Shown in pieces: positions 7,026 to 18,727 of a stretch of DNA of 64,000 bases (position 1 is its first letter; every line of letters begins with the position of its first letter). Under the pieces are notes generated by a model, which had not been told where the DNA came from, made no database searches, and saw nothing but the letters and a program-made list of their open reading frames with translations. The position numbers and the translations under genes are program-made. The stretch comes from Uliginosibacterium aquaticum. GTDB taxonomy: Bacteria > Pseudomonadota > Gammaproteobacteria > Burkholderiales > Rhodocyclaceae. Location of the stretch: positions 1 to 64,000 of the forward strand of contig NZ_JABCSC020000003.1 of NCBI RefSeq assembly GCF_012972705.2. Direction: 5' to 3'.

Positions 7026-8333
7026 ATGGCTGATCTGAGCAGCAACTTTCTGGGCATCAAAAGCCCGAACCCCTTCTGGCTGGCCTCGGCGCCGCCGACC
7101 GACAAGGAATACAACGTGGTGCGCGCCTTCGAGGCGGGCTGGGGCGGCGTGGTGTGGAAGACGCTGGGCGAAGACCCGCATGTGGTGAACGTGAGTGGCC
7201 CGCGTTACGCCACCTTGATGGGGCCGGATCGCCGCGTGCAGGGCTTGAACAACATCGAGCTGATCACCGACCGCTCGCTGGCGATCAACCTCGAAGAGAT
7301 CGCCCGCGTGAAGCGCAACTGGCCGGATCGCGCGGTGGTGGTCTCGCTGATGGTGCCCTGCCAGGAAGAATCCTGGAAACGCATCCTGCCGATGGTGGAA
7401 GACACCGGGGCCGATGGCATCGAGCTGAACTTCGGCTGCCCGCACGGCATGAGCGAGCGCGGCATGGGCGCGGCGGTAGGCCAGGTGCCGGAATACATCG
7501 AGATGGTCACGCGCTGGTGCAAGCAGTATTCGAAGATGCCGGTGATCGTGAAGCTCACCCCCAACATCACCGACATCCGCTTCCCGGCCCGCGCTGCGAA
7601 GGCCGGCGGGGCGGATGCGGTATCGCTGATCAACACCATCAACTCGATCATGGGCGTGGATCTGGACACCATGATCATGAGCCCCAGCACCGGCGGCAAG
7701 GGCTCGCATGGTGGCTACTGCGGCCCGGCGGTGAAGCCGATCGCGCTCAACATGGTGGCCGAGATCGCCCGCGATCCGCAAACCGCCGGCCTGCCGATCT
7801 CCGGCATCGGCGGCATCTCCACCTGGCGCGATGCGGCTGAATACATTGCGCTGGGCTGCGGCACGGTGCAGGTGTGTACCGCCGCGATGGTCTACGGCTT
7901 CCGCATCGTGGAGGACATGATTTCGGGCCTCTCGAATTTCATGGACCAGAAGGGCTACGCCTCGATTGCCGACTTCCAGGGCAGCGCCGTGCCGACCGTG
8001 TCGGACTGGCGTTACCTGAACCTCAAGCACATCGACAAGGCCGTCATCAATCAGGATCTGTGCATCCAGTGCGGCCGCTGCCATGTGGCCTGCGAAGACA
8101 CCTCCCACCAGGCGATCACCGCCTTCAAGGATGGCCAGCGCCATTACGAGGTGAAGGAAGAAGAGTGCGTCGGCTGCAACCTGTGCGTGTCGATCTGCCC
8201 GGTGCCCAGCTGCATCACGATGAAGAGCCTCAAGCCGGGTGAAGTCGATACCCGCACCGGTGAAACCGTGACCGGCGAATACCAGAACTGGACCACCCAC
8301 CCGAACAACCCGATGCGCGAAGTCACCGCGTGA
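7026..8333 (+). CDS. preA: NAD-dependent dihydropyrimidine dehydrogenase, PreA subunit
   Basis: 435 residues with TAGGAG 8-10 bp upstream. A dihydroorotate-dehydrogenase-like FMN barrel ([61 protein letters not shown]) is followed by a C-terminal ferredoxin domain with two 4Fe-4S motifs, [11 protein letters not shown] and [12 protein letters not shown]. The pyrimidine is reduced at FMN, with electrons arriving from PreT through the clusters. Length and domain order agree with E. coli PreA and the C-terminal half of eukaryotic DPD. The stop codon overlaps a possible GTG start of the next gene. Confidence 0.96.
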
Positions 8334-8344
8334 AAGCCAAGCCC

Positions 8345-9850
8345 ATGAGCGATCTCTACGAAGTCAGTCACTGGATCAACGGCGCCGCCCAGCGCGGCAC
8401 GCCAGTCGCCACGCAGGATATTTTCAACCCCGCCACCGGCGCGGTGCAGGGCAAGCTGCTGCTGGGCAGCAGCGCCGATCTGGAGGCTGCCGTGGCGGCG
8501 GCCGCCGCAGCCTTCCCGGCCTGGGCCGCGAAGTCTGCGCTGGCCCGCGCCCGGGTGTTCTACAAGTTCCTCGCCATCGTGCAGGAGCGCTCGGCGGTGC
8601 TGGCCGATTGCCTGGTGCGCGAACATGGCAAGACCTTCCCGGATGCGATGGGCGAAGTTGCGCGCGGCATCGAGAACATCGAGTTTGCCACCGGCATTCC
8701 GCAACTGCTCAAGGGCGATTTCAGCGACCAGATCGCCACCGGCATCGATGCCTGGACCCTGCGCCAGCCGCTCGGCGTGGTCGCCGGCATCACGCCCTTC
8801 AACTTCCCGGCGATGGTGCCGCTGTGGATGTTCCCGCTGGCGATTGCCTGCGGCAACACCTTCGTGCTGAAACCCTCCGAGCGCGACCCGGCGGCCAGCC
8901 TGCTGATGGCGGAATGGCTCAAGGAAGCCGGTCTGCCGGATGGCGTGTTCAACGTGGTGCAGGGCGACCGAGCTATCGTTGAAGCCATCCTGGCCCATCC
9001 GCAGATCGAGGCGGTGAGCTTCGTGGGCTCCACGCCGGTGGCCGAATCCATCTACCGTGCCGGCACGGCAGCCGGCAAGCGCGTGCAGGCCCTGGGCGGC
9101 GCCAAGAACCACCTGGTGGTAATGCCGGATGCGGATATCGCGATGGCCGCCGATGCGTTGATTGGTGCGGCGTTTGGCGCGGCGGGCGAGCGCTGCATGG
9201 CGATCTCGGTGGCGGTGGTGGTGGGCGATGTGGGCCCGGCCCTGATCGAGGCCCTGAAGAGCCGTATCGCCGCGCTGAAGGTCGGCGAAGGCCATCAGGA
9301 CAAGGTCGACATGGGCCCGGTGATCACCGCCGAAGCCTGTGCCCGCATCAAGCGCCTGATCGGCGAGGGCGTAGCGGCCGGGGCCGAGGCGGTGGTCGAT
9401 GGCCGCGCGATCGCGGTGCCGGGCTTCGAAGCCGGTTATTTCGTCGGCCCGACCCTGCTCGATGGCGTGACGCCGGACATGATCGTCTATCGCGAAGAGA
9501 TCTTCGGCCCGGTGCTGTGCATCGTGCGAATGCCGGATCTGCCCTCTGCCGTGAAGCTCATCAACGATCACGAATTCGGCAATGGCGTGGCGATCTACAC
9601 CCGCGATGGTGGTGTGGCGCGTGAATTCGTGCGGCATATTCGTGTCGGCATGGTCGGCGTGAATGTGCCGCTGCCGGTGCCGATGGCCTTCTCCAGCTTC
9701 GGTGGCTGGAAGCGCAGCCTGTTCGGCGATCACCACGCTTACGGCCCGGAAGGCGTGCGCTTCTACACCCGGCAGAAAGCGGTGATGCAGCGCTGGCCGG
9801 ACAGCCAGTCGGCCAAGGGCCCGGAGTTTGCATTCCCGCAGATGGGCTGA
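8345..9850 (+). CDS. mmsA: CoA-acylating malonate/methylmalonate-semialdehyde dehydrogenase
   Basis: 501 residues from ATG 8345, the family length; a GTG at 8330 that overlaps the preA stop would add five residues. It is an aldehyde dehydrogenase fold with the NAD-binding [18 protein letters not shown], the catalytic Cys in [10 protein letters not shown] and [10 protein letters not shown]. The [14 protein letters not shown] and [14 protein letters not shown] segments are typical of MMSDH. In this operon it would convert malonate semialdehyde from beta-alanine to acetyl-CoA (or methylmalonate semialdehyde to propionyl-CoA) with CO2 release, closing the pathway to central metabolism. Valine catabolism is an alternative role, but no other valine genes are nearby. 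Confidence 0.9.
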
Positions 9851-11329
<1,479 letters not shown>

Positions 11330-11348
11330 ACAGGATCAGGAGCCCATC

Positions 11349-12611
11349 ATGGACATGAAGACAAGCACAAATATCGACGCGCTGCGCATCAACGGCGAGC
11401 GTCTGTGGGATTCGCTGATGACGCTGGCGCAGATCGGTGCCACCGAGAAGGGCGGCGTGTGCCGGCTCGCCCTGACCGATCTCGACCGCCAGGGGCGCGA
11501 TCTGGTTGTGGGCTGGGCGAAGGAAGCCGGCATGAGCGTGACGGTCGACAAGATCGGCAACGTGTTCATGCGCCGCGAAGGCCGCAATCCGGCGCTGCCA
11601 CCGGTGATGACCGGCAGCCATATCGACACCCAGCCCACCGGTGGCAAGTTCGATGGCAACTACGGCGTGCTCGCCGGGCTGGAAGTGATCCGCACCCTCA
11701 ACGATCTCGGCATCGAAACCGAAGCGCCGCTGGAAGTGGCGTTCTGGACCAATGAGGAAGGCTCGCGCTTCGTGCCGGTAATGATGGGCTCGGGTGTGTT
11801 CGCCAAGGCCTTCACGCTGGAGCATGCCTACGCCGCGACCGACACCGAGGGCAAGAAGGTCGGCGAGGAGCTCGCCCGCATCGGCTACATCGGTGAAGAG
11901 GAGCCGGGTGATCACCCGATTGGCAGCTACTTCGAGACCCACATCGAGCAGGGCCCGGTGCTGGAAGATCATGACAAGGTGATCGGCGTGGTGCAGGCCG
12001 TGCTGGGCATCCGCTGGTATGACTGCACCGTGACCGGCATGGAGGCGCACGCCGGCCCCACGCCGATGCCGCTGCGCCGAGATGCCTTGCAGGTCGCCAC
12101 CCGCCTGATGCAGGAAGTGGTGGCGCTGGCCAATCGCCATGCGCCGCACGGCCGTGGCACGGTGGGCATGGTCCATGTGCATCCGAACAGCCGCAACGTG
12201 ATTCCGGGCCGGGTGAAGTTCTCCATCGACCTGCGCAACGAGAGCGATGCGGCGGTCGACGCGATGGATGCCGAGATCCGCGCCTATGCCGCCGCGCTGG
12301 CCGCCGAAACCGGGCTGGGCATCCAGATCGAGCTGGTCTCGCAATACCCGGCCCAGCCCTTCGAGCCGGGCTGTATCGCGGCGGTGGCGAAGGCGGCGGA
12401 GAAGCTGGGTTACTCGGCGATGCCGGCGGTTTCGGGTGCCGGCCATGACGCGGTCTACATGGCCCGCCTCGCGCCGGCCGGGATGATCTTCATCCCTTGC
12501 AAGGACGGCATCAGCCACAACGAGATCGAGGACGCCAAGCCCGAGCACATCACCGCCGGCTGCAACGTGCTGCTGCACGCGATGCTGGAGCGCGCCGGCG
12601 TCTTGACCTGA
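11349..12611 (+). CDS. Zn-dependent beta-ureidopropionase / N-carbamoyl amino acid hydrolase
   Basis: 420 residues from ATG 11349, with CAGGAG upstream; an upstream in-frame start at 11199 lies inside hydA and is discarded. M20-family amidase/hydantoinase fold: metal motifs TGSHIDTQPTGGKFDGNYG, FWTNEEGSRF with the catalytic Glu, and the lid-domain dimer with EAHAGPTPMPLRRDA and PNSRNVIPG; the last His ligand is in GISHNEIED. It releases ammonia, CO2 and beta-alanine from N-carbamoyl-beta-alanine, the third step of the reductive pathway (the role of PydB in pseudomonads). It is convergent with the next gene, with only 4 bp between the stop codons. Confidence 0.93.
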   Translation: MDMKTSTNIDALRINGERLWDSLMTLAQIGATEKGGVCRLALTDLDRQGRDLVVGWAKEAGMSVTVDKIGNVFMRREGRNPALPPVMTGSHIDTQPTGGKFDGNYGVLAGLEVIRTLNDLGIETEAPLEVAFWTNEEGSRFVPVMMGSGVFAKAFTLEHAYAATDTEGKKVGEELARIGYIGEEEPGDHPIGSYFETHIEQGPVLEDHDKVIGVVQAVLGIRWYDCTVTGMEAHAGPTPMPLRRDALQVATRLMQEVVALANRHAPHGRGTVGMVHVHPNSRNVIPGRVKFSIDLRNESDAAVDAMDAEIRAYAAALAAETGLGIQIELVSQYPAQPFEPGCIAAVAKAAEKLGYSAMPAVSGAGHDAVYMARLAPAGMIFIPCKDGISHNEIEDAKPEHITAGCNVLLHAMLERAGVLT

Positions 12612-12615
12612 GCAC

Positions 12616-13665
12616 CTACCAGCCGCTGAAGCGTAAGCTGCGGATCGTGACCGGCAGCTGATGGATGCGCGCCTCGGCGGGCAGGGCATCGGTCTCGATC
12701 AGCACCTGCAGACGCTGATTGCGCGGATCGAGCGTGCCGGCCAGCTCTTCCGGCAGGCGGCGGGTGGAGGGCGCCGGGCCGAGGATGCGCCCCTGCAGCG
12801 TGACACGGTTGGGCAGCACGATGCGCACCGTCTCGCCGCTATGGGTCAGCCCCAATTCGCGGCCCTGCATGAAGGCCACCACATGCGGGCGGCCATGGCG
12901 CAGCACCAGCATCGGCTCGCCCTGGGAAACGCGCTGGCCGCGGGTGAGCATCAGGTTGTCCGCCGTGCCCGCCACCGGCGCCCGCACCGTCAGCTCTCCC
13001 ATCCGCGCCTCGAGGCTGGCCAGGCGCGCGCGCTGCTCGGCGGAGAAAGAGGCGCTGACCACTGGCAAGGGTGAAGGCGTGCTGCGCAGGATGCTCTCCT
13101 GCTGGGCCTGGATGCTGCCGAGCAGGGCCAACTCCTCGCCTTCCGCTGCCAGCACTTCGCCGCGCGTGGCGGCATCCCGGGCAGCCAGATCGCGCAGCAC
13201 CAGCACACGCTGATGCAGCGCCGCCTGGCGTTGCTGCAGGGCCTTCAGGGTCTGCCGCTGGGACTGCAGCTGAGCCTGATGGATGGCCACAGCCTCCTTG
13301 GCGCTCGCCGCCACATTGGCTGCACGCAGGACTTCGTATTCCGCCCGCAGCGCGGGGTTGTCCAGACGCAGCAGCACGCTGCCCTGCGTGACCTGGCTAC
13401 CGCTGCTGAGGTTCAGCTCGGTCACGGTAGCGTCCTGCGGTGCCTGCAGGCTGAGCTCTTCGAACATCACGAAGCCACGCGCCTCCACCCACAGCCACTC
13501 GCGGATGAAGTGGACGGCGACCCAGATCGCCGGGCTCAGGGCCAGCAGGGTGATCAGCAACCAGCGCAGACGCGGCGGCACACGCTTTGACTCCTGCGGT
13601 GGGAGGCTCAACCCCCCTTCGCGGCGCGGATCAGCGGCTTCCGGAATGCGGAATCGGATTTTCAT
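12616..13665 (-). CDS. HlyD-like periplasmic adaptor of the polysaccharide cluster
   Basis: 349 residues; the ATG overlaps the stop of the upstream gene (ATGA), so the longer frame from 13833 is not used. A basic cytoplasmic N-terminus is followed by one transmembrane helix (about 33-53, WLLITLLALSPAIWVAVHF), then a half lipoyl domain (EELSLQAPQDATVTELNLSSG), a long alpha hairpin rich in Gln/Ala/Leu (about 110-210) and the second half (MGELTVRAPVAGTADNLML, QPMLVL-like and beta-barrel). This is the membrane-fusion architecture of HlyD and of Alg44/BgsB-type adaptors, but without a PilZ domain. It is inferred to bridge the inner-membrane synthase to the TolC-like partner encoded next to it. No ABC or RND transporter gene is adjacent. 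Confidence 0.85.
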   Translation of the reverse strand: MKIRFRIPEAADPRREGGLSLPPQESKRVPPRLRWLLITLLALSPAIWVAVHFIREWLWVEARGFVMFEELSLQAPQDATVTELNLSSGSQVTQGSVLLRLDNPALRAEYEVLRAANVAASAKEAVAIHQAQLQSQRQTLKALQQRQAALHQRVLVLRDLAARDAATRGEVLAAEGEELALLGSIQAQQESILRSTPSPLPVVSASFSAEQRARLASLEARMGELTVRAPVAGTADNLMLTRGQRVSQGEPMLVLRHGRPHVVAFMQGRELGLTHSGETVRIVLPNRVTLQGRILGPAPSTRRLPEELAGTLDPRNQRLQVLIETDALPAEARIHQLPVTIRSLRFSGW

Positions 13666-15740
13666 GGACTGGCTTTCAGATAGGTTTCCAGGCTCTGCAC
13701 GGCGAAACCCGCCACCACGCCCTGCTCCGCCAGACTCTGGAGACCTTCCAGGTGCTCGCGCAAGGCGCTTTGGCCGGCGCGGAAATGGCTCTCGTCTGGC
13801 GCCAGCTCGGGTTCGATGCTCTGCGCCAGCCACAGCGCCTTGCCGGGCAGATTGGCGGCGATGCGCTGGATGCGCTCACGGGCCGAGGCGGCTGAAGTGG
13901 AATACAGCATGACCACCACGTCGTCAGCGCTGGCGGCTGCGCGGCAGGCCGCACACAGCCCGCCGGCATCGGCCACGAGGGCACGCCAGTGGATACTGAG
14001 GCCGATCGGCAGCGGGCTGATCGCCCGCAGTTCGGCCACCCGCCGGGCCAGTTCGCGCCAGGCCTGCGCCTCGCCCGACCCACTGCGCTCAGCGGCACTC
14101 AGCTGGTCCGGTTCGAGATCGAGCTGCAGGCCGTCGAAAGGCAGCTCGGCCAGGTTCCGCACGATGACCAGCAGGGTTTCGCCGCGCCCCGCGCGCAGCC
14201 AGTCCGGGTCACCCAGCAGCAGGCTGACGCGGCGGCCGGCACGCTGCTGCGCACGGATCTGCGCGGCCAGGCGCTGACGAGGGCCGGCCGCAGTGAGCTG
14301 CTGCAGATCGGCCGGGCTGAAGGACAGCCACACCTCGCTGACCAGCAGTTCGCCCAGCGCCCGCCGCACGGCCTCACCCTCCAGCGCCTGCAAACCGCCC
14401 CAGGCATACACGGCGCGACGCGCGGGCTGCACCGCCAGCAGGTTCGGACAAGCTTCGGCCGGCGGCTGGCGCAGCGCCTCCCAGCTGAGCCAGGCGGCGG
14501 CCGGTAGCAGGCAGCCCTGCGCGGTAAGCGGGCTGTCGTCACCGGCCGCCCAGGCACGCGCCTGAGCCGCAATCAAGGCGATGAGTGCAGTGAAGTGGGC
14601 GCTGCGCGCTGCGACCCAGCGCTCGATCGGGTCACCCGCCACGCCGGCCTTAAGCTGGGCGCGCTGGCCGGTTTCGCGTACGCGGCTGCCGCTGGCCGCT
14701 GCGGCAGCGGTGGCCAGGCGCAGTTCGGCCTGCGCATCGGCCTGTTCGTTGAGCATGGCCTCACGCCAGCGCGCCGCCTCGTCACGCTGCTGCTGCAGGA
14801 GCAGGCGGGCGCGCTCTACCCGGGCGGCGGACTCACGCCGCGTGCTGCGGGCAACGCCGGCCGCATCCAGCGGCAGTTCGAAGCTGATGCCGGCATTGAT
14901 GCTGGAGGCACGGCCGAGGTCGTCATCACGGCGTAGGTTGCCGGCTACATAGGCGTTAGCACGCAGCGGACTGCTGCTGGCACGGGCCAGCTCGTCCTGC
15001 AGGGTCTGCAAGGCCAGCAGGGCCTGATCGCTGGTCTGCTCCGCCGGCAAATCCAGCCCGCCGCCGGGGCCGGCCACGAGCTGGCCTGCAAAATCCGCGC
15101 GCCAGCGCCGCAGTTCACGCCCGAAGCGCAGCAGCTCGGCTGCGGCACTGGCTTGCTGGCGCTCGGCCTGGTTCAGGCTCAGGGCCAGCTCGCGCACCTC
15201 GCCCTCAAGCAGCAGGCCGGCCTGCTGGCGCTGTGCCAGTGCCGCACGGATCTGCGGTGCGGCAGCGAGGAAGTGGCGCGCCAGGGCCTGCTGCGCCTCG
15301 GCCCGGGCATAGCCGTAGTAACTGCTGCGCAAATCCTGCAGCAGGCGCTGGCGCAGGGCTTCGCGCTGGACCCGGCTGAGCAGTGCGTCGATGCCAGCAT
15401 AGCCGACGCGCAGACGCTGTTCGCCAGCCGTGCCGAGCAGCGGATAGCGCAGCCCCAGGCTGCCGAGCAGGCTGTGGTAATCGCGCGTGCCACCGCCGAA
15501 CTGCGGTTCATAGACGTTGGCCGCGCCGGCATCACCATACAGGCGCAGGCCGCCACTGGCCCGCTCTCGTTCGAGCTGCGACTCGGCCAGCTCGCGCTCG
15601 GCACCTGCCAGGGCGTAGTCCGGGTGGCTCTCCAGCGCGTCGGCGAAATCCTGCAGGCGGAATGCCGGCGCAGCCTGCACCGCGCCACCGCAAAGCAGCA
15701 GCAGGCAAGCGGCCAGACGGAGGAGGAAGGTGGCTGCCAT
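13662..15740 (-). CDS. TolC-like outer membrane protein fused to a GH18-like TIM barrel
   Basis: 692 residues from the ATG one base after the GT2 stop (TGACATG). A signal peptide (MAATFLLRLAACLLLLCGGAVQA) is followed by a TolC/OEP-type region to about 440: repeated coiled-coil segments such as ADALESHPDYALAGAERELA, Ala/Gln/Arg-rich helices and two similar halves. The remaining 250 residues form an alpha/beta domain with strands VSLLLGDPDWL, FDGLQLDLEP (536-543 reads DGLQLDLE, matching the GH18 pattern DGxxxDxE with the acid Glu), IGLSIHWR, DVVVMLYS and KALWLAQSIEP. The fusion suggests a secretion channel carrying its own glycosidase or glycan-binding barrel. I know of no characterised protein with this architecture. 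Overlaps the adaptor start by 4 bp. Confidence 0.8.
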   Translation of the reverse strand: MAATFLLRLAACLLLLCGGAVQAAPAFRLQDFADALESHPDYALAGAERELAESQLERERASGGLRLYGDAGAANVYEPQFGGGTRDYHSLLGSLGLRYPLLGTAGEQRLRVGYAGIDALLSRVQREALRQRLLQDLRSSYYGYARAEAQQALARHFLAAAPQIRAALAQRQQAGLLLEGEVRELALSLNQAERQQASAAAELLRFGRELRRWRADFAGQLVAGPGGGLDLPAEQTSDQALLALQTLQDELARASSSPLRANAYVAGNLRRDDDLGRASSINAGISFELPLDAAGVARSTRRESAARVERARLLLQQQRDEAARWREAMLNEQADAQAELRLATAAAAASGSRVRETGQRAQLKAGVAGDPIERWVAARSAHFTALIALIAAQARAWAAGDDSPLTAQGCLLPAAAWLSWEALRQPPAEACPNLLAVQPARRAVYAWGGLQALEGEAVRRALGELLVSEVWLSFSPADLQQLTAAGPRQRLAAQIRAQQRAGRRVSLLLGDPDWLRAGRGETLLVIVRNLAELPFDGLQLDLEPDQLSAAERSGSGEAQAWRELARRVAELRAISPLPIGLSIHWRALVADAGGLCAACRAAASADDVVVMLYSTSAASARERIQRIAANLPGKALWLAQSIEPELAPDESHFRAGQSALREHLEGLQSLAEQGVVAGFAVQSLETYLKASP

Positions 15741-15741
15741 G

Positions 15742-17025
15742 TCAGTAACGGGTCTTGCGCAGCACCCACCAGGGCGCCATGGAGGAATCGAGATGCTGGC
15801 GGGTGACCAGCTCGGCCAGGGTGGCAAAGGCATTCCACACGCGCGAGGCGAAGGTGAAGAAAGGGAACAGGGGCACGAAGGCGAGGTAAGGCCAATCCTG
15901 GCGGCGGCGCTCGGAGAGCAGCAGCAGGTAGCTCAGGAACAGGGCGCCGGTGAGCAGGGTGTAGAACACATAGGTGAGCCCCAGCACCGCCAGCAGCACC
16001 GGCCAGGGCAGGGACCAGACCAACCACAGGGTGGCGCCGACGATGATGAAGGGCATCACGAGCTGGAAGTAGACCCCGGTCCACATCAGCATGATGAAAT
16101 TGCGCCAGCCCAGCAGGCCCGGCCGCAGGCTGTGCCAGTGCTTGCGCACATAGAGGTAGAACAGGTCGCCATCCCAGCGCAGGCGCTGCTTGAAAAACAC
16201 CTTCCACTCGGTGGGCGCATCGGTGTGCCCCATGGCCAGCGGCTGGTGCTCGATGCGGTAGCGCTCGCGCGTGCCGAAGCGCTTCTTGATGCGCAGGGTG
16301 AGGTCCAGATCCTCGGCGGTGCCGGCATCCCAACCGCCGAGACTGTCGAGCAGGCTGGCCCGGAAGGCCCCGAAGGCCCCCGAGATGTTGTTGACCGTGT
16401 TGAAGGCGGTGAGCCCGGTGCGGGCGAGCTGGATGGTCAGCATGTATTCCAGCGCCTGCAGGCGGGCGACCAGACTGGCCGAGGCGTTGCGCACCCGCAA
16501 TGCACCGGAGACGCCGGCGACCTGCGGATCGGCGAAGGGGCGGGTGATGTGCCAGACCATGTCGTTGTCGAACGAGGTGTCGCCATCGAGCGCCAGCACC
16601 ACTTCGCCGGTCGCGAAATGGCGGCCGGCATTGAGGCTGGAGACCCGCCCGCCACGGGTGCGCTTGGGCAGGATCTTGAGGATGCGACTCGGATGACGGC
16701 GGGCGCTTTCCTGCCATTCGCGCGCAGCCAGATAGGTGGCGCGGTTCTGCACGGCACCATCGACCATGATCAGGATCTCGATGACGCCTGGGTAGGTCTG
16801 CTCGATAAGGGTTTCGACCGTCTTGCCCACGTCGCGGCCTTCCGAGTAGCAGGTGACGACGCAGCTCACGCGCGGCCGGAAGGCATCCAGCTGCGGGCGC
16901 GCCTTGCGCCGCAGCGCGTAGCTGATCACGCCCAGCCAGCACAAAAGGTAGGCCGGCAGCTCGAACAGCAGCACCAGCGGGAATACGGTCAGCAGGATCT
17001 CGGCCAGGCCGCGCGACTCGAACAT
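15742..17025 (-). CDS. Processive family-2 glycosyltransferase (polysaccharide synthase)
   Basis: 427 residues. An N-terminal membrane segment (about 8-36) precedes a GT-A domain with the processive-synthase signatures: Asp89 in MVDGA, D147-G-D149 in LALDGDTS, the catalytic-base acid in TAEDLDL (E238-D239) and Q280-RLRW. Three or four C-terminal transmembrane segments (about 305-385) follow. This is the cellulose/hyaluronan/mixed-linkage glucan synthase layout, shorter than BcsA and without PilZ. The sugar cannot be told from sequence. Spacing to the preceding regulator gene is 3 bp and to the next gene 1 bp, so it is one operon. The pairing of GT2 with an HlyD-like protein is known from BgsA/BgsB of Ensifer meliloti. 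Confidence 0.9.
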   Translation of the reverse strand: MFESRGLAEILLTVFPLVLLFELPAYLLCWLGVISYALRRKARPQLDAFRPRVSCVVTCYSEGRDVGKTVETLIEQTYPGVIEILIMVDGAVQNRATYLAAREWQESARRHPSRILKILPKRTRGGRVSSLNAGRHFATGEVVLALDGDTSFDNDMVWHITRPFADPQVAGVSGALRVRNASASLVARLQALEYMLTIQLARTGLTAFNTVNNISGAFGAFRASLLDSLGGWDAGTAEDLDLTLRIKKRFGTRERYRIEHQPLAMGHTDAPTEWKVFFKQRLRWDGDLFYLYVRKHWHSLRPGLLGWRNFIMLMWTGVYFQLVMPFIIVGATLWLVWSLPWPVLLAVLGLTYVFYTLLTGALFLSYLLLLSERRRQDWPYLAFVPLFPFFTFASRVWNAFATLAELVTRQHLDSSMAPWWVLRKTRY

Positions 17026-17028
17026 GGT

Positions 17029-18420
17029 TCAGGTCTCGATCTCGGTTTCCAGCCGCGAAGCCATCAGGCCCATCAGTTGATTGGCTTCGAGCGGCAGCCC
17101 GTCCGCTCCGGGCATGCTGACCACCGCGGTGGACAGCGCCAGCATCGCGGCGTTGGCCTGGCGCGAGGCCTGCCCCAGCTCGCGCATGCGTGACACCAGC
17201 AGACGCGCGCCGGCTTCGTCGGTATGCGGGGTGAGCAGCCAGATGTGGTCATCGTCACCACGGGTGGTGAGATCGGTGGTGCGCAAGGTCGCGCGCAGAC
17301 GCTCGGCGAATCCATCGATCAGGGTCGCGGTGACCGAGCGGCCCAGCGTACTTACCAGTTCCTCCAGGTTGCGCACACGCAGGCCGATCACGCTGAAGAA
17401 GTGGCTCTCGGGATAGCGCCGGGCCAGGGCAATCTGCCAGTCCAGCAGGCGTTCGAACAGCGCCGGCACGATGAAGTTGACCGTATCCAGCCCCGACAGC
17501 ACCGGCGACAGATTGCCCTGGCGCGCCAGCAACAGCCCGGCACCGCCCAGGCGATAGACCGCGATCGGACGTACCGGCAGACGCTCGGGCGAGCTGCTCG
17601 CGCCACAGGCCATGCACTGGCTGCGCACGTCGGCATCGACGAACAGATTTTTGCACTGGCGGCACTGCAGCTGCTCCAGCGGCCGGTCGTAATCCACCCC
17701 AATATGGCGCAGGGCGACCGAGCACTTGGGGCATTCGAGACGGTGCTGGCGCTGGAAGCTCTCCTGCTGATCGACATGGCCGCAAGTAAAGCAATGCAGC
17801 AGGCGGGTGCTGGTGATATCGATGCTGGCGCAGGACGGGCAGACGTCCACATGGTTCATGTGCGCGCTGCTGCACTGGTCGCACAGGCGCAGGCGATCGA
17901 CGACCACCTCGGTATCGAGGATGCGCCGACGGCTCCAGCGCTCGAGCCAGACGTAGGGATCTTCCCCCTCGGTGAGCAGGGTTTCGACCAGCGGATAGCG
18001 GTAATAAGCTGGCGCGGTCCAGTCCTTCACCGGATGCAGTCGTTGCGCCGGCCGGCACGCCAGGTACTGCGCCAGCGCCTCGCCGGGCGTGGCAGCCACA
18101 TGCGTCAGGCGCGCAGCCTGGGCCATGATCTCGTGGGCCTGTGCGTCCCGCCCGGCGGCGTCCACCGCAATACCATCAAGCAGGCTGGCGAGGCCTGGCG
18201 GCTCCGCACCGTCAGGCCGGGTCGCCAGGAACAGGGGCAGATGACTCAGGGCTGGCTGGGCCCGGATGGCGCGTACCCAGGCCGCCGCCTGCGGCCACGC
18301 AGAGGTCTCAAGCAGCACCGGAGCACGCAGCTCACCGACCAGCAAGGCTGCCAGCTCGACGCGCGGCATGCCTGCGACCAACACCGATGCTGGCTGCTCA
18401 CTGAGACCTATCCATTGCAT
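17029..18420 (-). CDS. TackOD1 zinc-ribbon protein with degenerate GGDEF, likely c-di-GMP effector
   Basis: 463 residues; the ATG has AAGGAAG upstream. Residues 1-105 resemble a receiver-like alpha/beta domain without obvious phosphoacceptor residues. About 140-275 is a TackOD1-type metal-binding domain with six CxxC pairs (Cys 180/183, 194/197, 210/213, 230/233, 253/256, 269/272) and the segment LRHIGVDYDRPL. About 285-463 is a GGDEF fold whose active site is RGDDD (387-391) instead of GGDEF, while the inhibitory-site motif R380-T-T-D383 is intact. Loss of catalysis with a kept I-site is the pattern of c-di-GMP receptors such as PelD. It heads the operon with the GT2, channel and adaptor genes and is presumably the switch for polymer synthesis. 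Confidence 0.85.
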   Translation of the reverse strand: MQWIGLSEQPASVLVAGMPRVELAALLVGELRAPVLLETSAWPQAAAWVRAIRAQPALSHLPLFLATRPDGAEPPGLASLLDGIAVDAAGRDAQAHEIMAQAARLTHVAATPGEALAQYLACRPAQRLHPVKDWTAPAYYRYPLVETLLTEGEDPYVWLERWSRRRILDTEVVVDRLRLCDQCSSAHMNHVDVCPSCASIDITSTRLLHCFTCGHVDQQESFQRQHRLECPKCSVALRHIGVDYDRPLEQLQCRQCKNLFVDADVRSQCMACGASSSPERLPVRPIAVYRLGGAGLLLARQGNLSPVLSGLDTVNFIVPALFERLLDWQIALARRYPESHFFSVIGLRVRNLEELVSTLGRSVTATLIDGFAERLRATLRTTDLTTRGDDDHIWLLTPHTDEAGARLLVSRMRELGQASRQANAAMLALSTAVVSMPGADGLPLEANQLMGLMASRLETEIET

Positions 18421-18727
18421 GTTGGGGACTTCCTTTTACGGCAGCTACAGATGTGCGCTGCCAGCGGCCAGATCCTCACTTGCCTGATCCAGGATCAATG
18501 CGGGCCGGGCTGGCGGCCGGGAGGCTGCGCCCGGTACGGCGGCGGATTATAACTTGGCCGGACAAACGCCCACCCCAGGCGAAAACGCAAGATCCGTCAA
18601 ATCCAACAACATTGTGCGAATCCGCCCCAGAGATGGTTATGAGGGCCAGAACGGCAATTTTGTTCAATACCTGAGTGGCCATACCGGGCAGTCTGGGCCA
18701 CTTCGATCTCGGCGGCGCAAAGACACC
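18421..18727. other. Divergent intergenic region
   Basis: About 300 bp separating the minus-strand polysaccharide operon from the plus-strand lysE-type gene. It must hold both promoters, but I see no element good enough to call; a GC-rich inverted stretch lies around 18505-18545 (GGGCCGGGCTGGCGGCC). No coding region is supported. Confidence 0.5.

Follow-up and report, generated by a model that had tools for sequence, protein, structure and literature searches.

A conserved TackOD1-GGDEF, GT2, TolC-type and HlyD-type operon, and its probable role in c-di-GMP-gated exopolysaccharide synthesis and export

The DNA analysed here, referred to below as the window, comprises 64,000 nucleotides of Uliginosibacterium aquaticum (contig NZ_JABCSC020000003.1, positions 1 to 64,000). 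Four genes lie close together on its minus strand between positions 12616 and 18420, and it is these, and what they might accomplish together, that concern us. The first (17029–18420) encodes a 463-aa protein in which a TackOD1 domain (Pfam, 3.5e-61) is joined to a degenerate GGDEF domain (3.4e-8); alignment places a predicted cyclic di-GMP (c-di-GMP) I-site of the RxxD kind, R380-T-T-D383, at codons 17272–17283. The second (15742–17025) encodes a processive family 2 glycosyltransferase (GT2) of 427 aa, identified by a match to Pfam Glyco_tranf_2_3 (1.3e-21), by its catalytic motifs and transmembrane segments, and by its place in a tree. The third (13662–15740) encodes a 692-aa protein, TolC-GH, in which a TolC-type channel (Pfam OEP, 4.5e-12) is fused to a barrel resembling those of family 18 glycoside hydrolases (GH18). 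The fourth (12616–13665) encodes a periplasmic adaptor of the HlyD/EmrA type, 349 aa long and beginning MKIRF (Pfam HlyD_3, 5.6e-9). Mechanically called open reading frames (ORFs) for the last two genes begin further upstream, at 15833 and 13833; the starts given here, 15740 and 13665, were set by alignment to relatives. The former yields a signal-peptide-like N-terminus, and the latter, MKIRF, is invariant in six aligned members. With these starts the genes are separated by TGA-ACC-ATG (3 bp), by TGA-C-ATG (1 bp) and by a 4-bp ATGA overlap, just as an earlier note on this DNA had it. That note's four identifications are borne out as well, by the Pfam matches and, for the barrel, by predicted structure and conserved residues. 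It had also remarked on the lack of an ABC or RND pump gene, and this holds for the operon: the ORF list and Pfam scan reveal no ABC, MFS or RND motor inside it, and no tetratricopeptide-repeat (TPR) or porin gene.

The four genes are a conserved unit. A profile of the GT2 was run against GTDB representative contigs, and the best 80 of 170 relatives were analysed. TackOD1 accompanies the GT2 in 79 of these 80 loci, the third gene (channel part, GH part, or both) in all 80, and HlyD in 78; the three missing genes all fall at contig ends. Seventy loci have the order TackOD1-GT2-TolC/GH-HlyD, seven have TolC/GH-HlyD-TackOD1-GT2, and three are cut short. The genes are tightly packed: where the main order holds, the estimated gaps have medians of 9, 5 and 3 bp, and in the alternative order HlyD and TackOD1 are a median of 81 bp apart. 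The widest spacing, at 1.2 kb, occurs in Melaminivora alkalimesophila (locus L034, 11261–12488), where the DNA that separates GT2 from TolC-GH contains on the opposite strand a 335-aa ORF that reads like a transposase; the insert is absent from the otherwise 99.5% identical locus L033, and the matches on its two sides overlap by 4 bp, as a target-site duplication would give.

Other query proteins disclose the same association. TolC-GH matched 6 of 300 genomes of the order, the window's own and five more, four of which belong to one genus; each of the five holds all four genes in the same order, with a GT2 46–57% identical, and it was from these GT2s that the profile used above was built. TackOD1 matched 16 genes in 15 of 398 Pseudomonadota genomes, the window's included, and GT2 and HlyD adjoin it in all 16, though one of the HlyD genes is truncated where its contig stops. 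At E <= 1e-50 the GT2 profile found 13 of the 398 genomes, every one among the 15 with TackOD1 (hypergeometric P ~1e-22, treating genomes as independent though they are related). TackOD1 has a single match in each of 20 genomes to which the loci led. Among Thermodesulfobacteriota, TackOD1 occurs in 8 of 247 genomes and is linked to GT2 in six of the eight, or in five of seven when the sample-centre genome is set aside. The other two genes are orphans (L161, 8832–10256; L164, 6474–7913), and lie in similar neighbourhoods with ORFs that read as Sir2-like and CYTH-like. Adjacency by chance can be rejected, since the linkage was obtained with three separate query proteins and extends across phyla. 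Gene content, and conservation as a unit, are to this extent established.

The 30 loci in our tree are labelled Pseudomonadota, Myxococcota, Planctomycetota, Synergistota, Thermodesulfobacteriota and Campylobacterota. Many of the records behind the GT2 loci are metagenome-assembled genomes (MAGs), so some of the labels may be wrong. One locus, L047, is labelled an archaeal MAG (Methanomethylovorans) yet has the gene order of Synergistaceae loci; the label is probably a binning error. The window's nearest relative in the tree, L018 (GT2 71% identical), is labelled Anaeromyxobacter, with TolC-GH divided there between two ORFs.

The operon also moves horizontally as a unit. All four genes are present on pKAM329_3, a 29-kb mobilizable plasmid of Aeromonas caviae (L143, 6438–12811), where they are annotated as a diguanylate cyclase, a glycosyltransferase, a TolC family protein and a HlyD family adaptor. 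Over 6390 bp the plasmid copy shares 94.3% identity with a locus of Stutzerimonas degradans (L048, 8438–14814), in a match that begins ~0.1 kb ahead of the genes and stops ~0.4 kb past them; joint movement, like joint conservation, is established. Within the window's own family the operon is patchy, for the GT2 at 1e-50 is absent from all 149 other genomes, three listed congeners included. One flanking gene has a 47%-identical match in one of these three congeners, and a second flanking gene has none in them. The GC content of the operon, 0.65–0.73 in 1-kb steps, is equal to or slightly above that of the flanks (0.63–0.68), and the comparison with its surroundings gives no clear sign of foreign origin.

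The GT2 carries the features of a processive inner-membrane glycosyltransferase: the D, DxD, ED and QxxRW motifs, and transmembrane helices. The motif residues, D89, DGD at 147–149, ED at 238–239 and QRLRW at 280–284, stand where the earlier note placed them and are invariant in a six-member alignment. A simple scan finds at least four hydrophobic segments (10–28, 311–329, 332–350 and 353–371), and Pfam finds no PilZ domain. No other protein of the genome matches GT2 at E <= 1e-5. Its nearest curated family is PgaC/IcaA, at 126 bits against a cut-off of 422.3, followed by NodC, and its relatives of known structure in the PDB include hyaluronan synthases. A quick-search tree was made from 50 rows, which include 30 of the 80 loci. 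In it a branch (SH-aLRT 91) separates the 44 TackOD1-linked GT2s from PgaC/IcaA, NodC and BcsA/BgsA; BgsA groups with BcsA, and the branches to NodC and PgaC are long, so that their exact places are unsure. On the PgaC score and this tree we reject the possibility that the locus is one for poly-N-acetylglucosamine (PNAG), for the BgsBA polymer or for cellulose.

Some hint of the product comes from neighbouring genes. In 13 of the 80 loci, 11 of them from Pseudomonas, the operon is followed immediately, in the same orientation, by a gene of the sugar epimerase/dehydratase family, and another lies between TackOD1 and GT2 in L163. Three such genes were scanned with NCBIfam: that of L024 is GalE (420 bits, cut-off 262), and those of L064 (Pseudomonas) and L163 fall below every cut-off. 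Together with the GH18-like barrel, these neighbours suggest that the GT2 may make an N-acetylhexosamine polymer.

The TackOD1-GGDEF protein has no hydrophobic segment in a simple scan and no predicted transmembrane helix. Its AlphaFold2 model—a single chain, as are all of those used here—has a pLDDT (predicted local distance difference test) score of 89, and all of the 50 Foldseek matches listed for it are GGDEF proteins. Most cysteines of the TackOD1 domain are nearly invariant. Among 97 aligned proteins, the I-site arginine is present in 93 and the aspartate in 97; position 411 (window numbering) is arginine in 78 and lysine in nine, and I-site Arg and Asp occur together with R411 in 78. 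The catalytic GG[DE]EF motif occurs in none of the 97. On these grounds an active diguanylate cyclase can be rejected, in spite of the label in one public record. In a HMMER alignment the RTTD site matches RDTD, RQSD and RKSD of GGDEF chains in the PDB, two of the three from complexes with c-di-GMP (3ign and 6zxm). The earlier note had cast this protein as a c-di-GMP receptor, and by its residues it does look like one; presumably it is the receptor that activates the GT2.

The remaining two proteins are the familiar partners of tripartite export, a HlyD/EmrA-type adaptor and a TolC-family channel, both encoded within the operon. HlyD has one N-terminal transmembrane segment in a simple scan, and its best solved relatives are EmrA (9.4e-13) and HlyD itself. 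TolC-GH has a single hydrophobic segment, likewise N-terminal, and its predicted structure comprises a TolC-family fold at residues ~25–401 and a GH18-like TIM barrel at ~438–692. Enzymes of GH18 are TIM barrels with a DxxDxDxE (DxE) motif on strand 4 and MxY on strand 6. The residues conserved in the barrel of TolC-GH follow predicted strands 4 and 6: D and E are present in 81 of 82 members, and D, E and Y in 80. The assignment is based on predicted structure, on these residues and on a weak Pfam match in one distant homologue; the conserved residues are established, here as in the GT2 and the I-site, and the domain folds are predicted.

Taken together, these properties make it probable, in our judgment, that the locus is a synthase-dependent exopolysaccharide machine, gated by c-di-GMP and exporting its product by way of HlyD and TolC. 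We infer each of its working parts separately: c-di-GMP binding, polymer identity, hydrolase activity, physical complex and TolC route. Cytoplasmic c-di-GMP would bind the I-site of the degenerate GGDEF domain, and the TackOD1 protein so occupied would activate the membrane-bound GT2. The GT2 would then build a chain from a nucleotide sugar, for which UDP-GlcNAc or its 4-epimer is the likeliest candidate, and thread it through the inner membrane. From there the HlyD-like protein would convey it through the periplasm as far as the TolC-family channel, where the GH18-like barrel, on the channel's periplasmic C-terminus, might trim the polymer or clear it from the channel mouth. BcsZ, AlgL and PgaB play roles comparable to that envisaged for the barrel.

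Several observations weigh against this account. Many GGDEF domains have the aspartate of RxxD, and its role is partly structural, so that by itself it is weak evidence of binding. Two of the TackOD1-GGDEF genes of Thermodesulfobacteriota are the orphans mentioned above, the GT2 profile matching nothing there at 1e-20. The GT2 scores so far below the PgaC cut-off that its substrate is a guess. Pfam names GH18 in none of 53 members at 0.01, the window's protein among the unnamed; L158 has a match of 4.5e-4, below the cut-off. The Asp positions in the early part of the GH18 motif vary, and the first is missing from most members, being D in 34 of 86 rows (four gaps). No experiment on any member of the operon was found in the open-access literature, and polysaccharide export through a TolC-family channel is unvalidated in one published proposal, according to a review (PMC12430437). 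Last, the TolC part is missing from 18 of the 80 loci, all Pseudomonas, in which the GH domain alone is left (L051, L062, L064, L065, L069, L070, L072, L075, L081, L082, L084, L085, L086, L090 and L092–L095), and 8 of 15 further TackOD1 loci have no gene beside the core that the TolC-GH profile matches. In such loci the channel must be supplied in trans, or it is unneeded.

The main rival to a complete export route is that TackOD1, GT2 and HlyD alone are the machine, somewhat as BgsA and BgsB are; TolC-GH would then be chiefly a glycosidase of the periplasm or outer membrane, with its channel half an anchor or an optional extra, and the polymer would exit through a different porin or stay in the periplasm. 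The 18 Pseudomonas loci favour this, GH-only proteins having replaced the fusion. In L064 the protein still begins with a signal-peptide-like sequence that closely resembles the start of the complete fusion in L068, and it looks as if its TolC half had been cleanly deleted. The eight further loci, with neither channel nor GH part, favour it too, as does the two-gene operon of BgsA and its HlyD-like partner (PMC9495663). Yet OEP and GH form one ORF in 54 of the 80 loci, beside HlyD, the classical partner of TolC. The other third genes, GH-only cases apart, are OEP alone in three, two ORFs in three and cut in two; two of the three OEP-only genes are at contig ends, but that of L022 is not, and keeps OEP without GH. 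All six GT2-linked loci of Thermodesulfobacteriota, L046 among them, keep a gene matching the TolC-GH profile. We consider this rival unlikely.

What the variation of the third gene does establish is that the constant core is TackOD1-GT2-HlyD, and that the TolC part, though often present, is a module that can be replaced. Among the 15 further loci, a TolC-GH-profile gene adjoins the core in four (L127, L134, L135 and L139), and one is cut; Pfam finds no OEP in that of L127. L130 and L133 have instead, upstream of HlyD, a small TPR protein and a large one, of 726 aa in L130 (no Pfam family above cut-off) and 936 aa in L133 (AMIN). The earlier note had taken the four genes for a unit, a view that would fall if their homologues rarely co-occurred. 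By the counts given above they do co-occur, and the unit is no accident of adjacency; its fixed part, though, is three genes and not four, with TolC absent or deleted in many loci.

A different possibility is that HlyD and TolC-GH serve a separate exporter of small molecules or proteins, in the manner of EmrAB, and merely share an operon with the GT2. Adaptors whose best solved relatives are EmrA and HlyD invite the thought, and ORFs that read like transporters do occur in the vicinity of some relatives: near L068, on the opposite strand, an RND-type set that includes a match of its own to the HlyD profile; an ABC ATPase-like ORF ~250 bp from the TolC-GH gene of L158, on the same strand; in a cluster of 19 loci, MFS-like ORFs at 3.7–9.6 kb upstream; and in a cluster of 22, ABC-type ATPase ORFs that are mostly ~10 kb off. 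Inside the unit, on the other hand, the gaps between core genes leave no room for a pump gene, the transposase-like insert of L034 excepted, and loci that show no TolC-GH gene still have HlyD beside the GT2. These two reasons speak against a separate efflux role, which we regard as very improbable. The earlier note had held that the pair most simply serves the GT2, a view that consistent linkage to a pump would have undone; no such linkage appears among these loci, and the sequences continue to favour the GT2 as their client. It is doubtful, too, though less so, that the GT2 product is non-secreted or lipid-linked, or that the barrel is a peptidoglycan-lytic enzyme that opens the wall for the channel.

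As for the surroundings, a promoter scan of the operon found nothing, and a single terminator-like site is within chance expectation. A perfect inverted repeat, TGATCC-T-GGATCA, lies at 18485–18497 (minus strand), ~65 bp upstream of the first gene, and is possibly a regulator site. Converging on the operon from the plus strand (8330–12611) are genes resembling those for an aldehyde dehydrogenase, a dihydropyrimidinase-like hydrolase and an amidohydrolase of the M20 peptidase family, perhaps a pyrimidine-degradation cluster; the M20 gene alone was scanned with Pfam, and the others were named by reading their sequences.

Several elements of the proposed machine are already in print: a GT2 with a HlyD-like partner; a GT2 with a membrane-fusion partner and c-di-GMP control; and a proposal for GT2, HlyD and TolC together. 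As far as searches show, what is new with respect to the open-access literature is the operon itself, TackOD1-GGDEF as a candidate receptor, the joining of TolC to GH, and how widely the genes occur. No paper describing a TackOD1-GT2-HlyD operon was found in that literature, subscription papers and preprints lying outside it. A 2020 survey of operons dealt with five polymers already known, and neither HlyD nor TolC appears in its main text (PMC7112194). We give even chances to the broader idea that this is a widespread, undescribed class of c-di-GMP-gated systems, in which HlyD hands the polymer to a glycosidase-bearing TolC channel, TackOD1-GGDEF proteins are dedicated receptors, and the exit is exchangeable while the core is fixed. 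Were it so, Pseudomonas, Stutzerimonas, Nitrosomonas, Comamonadaceae, Synergistota and sulfate reducers might possess a matrix polymer of this origin, and bacterial TackOD1 would gain a specific, testable role.

The TackOD1 domain is known from archaea, where, alone or as REC-TackOD1, it occurs in response regulators of thaumarchaeal type IV pilus loci; a 2018 account, which calls its function obscure, places it in some bacteria as well (PMC5847659). The Cys-rich Pfam domain is the same in both settings, but here it is joined to GGDEF and tied to a GT2 instead. As a candidate receptor, the protein resembles PelD and BcsE, degenerate GGDEF proteins of exopolysaccharide synthesis that bind c-di-GMP at an I-site (RXXD in PelD); PelD, however, has transmembrane helices and a GAF domain (PMC8461298), whereas here a Cys-rich TackOD1 precedes the GGDEF domain and no transmembrane segment is seen. 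Alginate polymerization by Alg8 and Alg44 likewise pairs a GT2 with an inner-membrane protein that has a membrane-fusion domain, and it too has a c-di-GMP receptor; there, though, c-di-GMP is received by a PilZ domain that is part of the membrane-fusion protein itself, and AlgK and AlgE, not TolC, belong to the periplasmic scaffold (PMC8461298). The TPR scaffold and beta-barrel porin of synthase-dependent systems in general are lacking in the window operon, where the third gene is of TolC type. Compared with PgaABCD, as encoded by the pga operon of E. coli, the operon has no PgaD, no deacetylase PgaB and no TPR-porin, and its GT2 is under the PgaC cut-off.

Another system to compare is BgsB-BgsA, for mixed-linkage beta-glucan in Sinorhizobium/Rhizobium, in which a GT2 with a HlyD-like partner is activated post-translationally by c-di-GMP; it differs in being a two-gene operon, with the c-di-GMP site within BgsA itself (PMC9495663), and BgsA belongs to the clade of BcsA. 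In one locus (L128, 7142–14567) the two kinds lie side by side on the same strand, a BgsA-like GT2 with PilZ and a HlyD-like partner directly beside a TackOD1-GT2-HlyD set—perhaps two polymers, perhaps one hybrid machine. All three parts, a GT2, an adaptor resembling HlyD and a channel resembling TolC, come together in XcsA-XcsB-TolC, put forward as a tripartite exporter of cellulose in cyanobacteria (Maeda 2018, as reviewed in PMC12430437). The earlier note had imagined a distinct class of export: the combination of such parts with their regulator in one operon stands, but the GT2-HlyD-TolC idea had been proposed already (PMC12430437). XcsA itself, which we left out of the GT2 tree, has PilZ, which the window's GT2 has no match to. 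What the review says of the system includes an endoglucanase, XcsC, with no mention there of TackOD1 or of a GH-fused channel, and the genes are scattered in Thermosynechococcus vulcanus, a circumstance that clouds the cyanobacterial case (PMC12430437). Here the GT2 is PgaC-like, the TackOD1-GGDEF protein is separate, and all are encoded in one operon, which provides a compact case in which to ask whether polysaccharide can leave the cell by way of HlyD and TolC.

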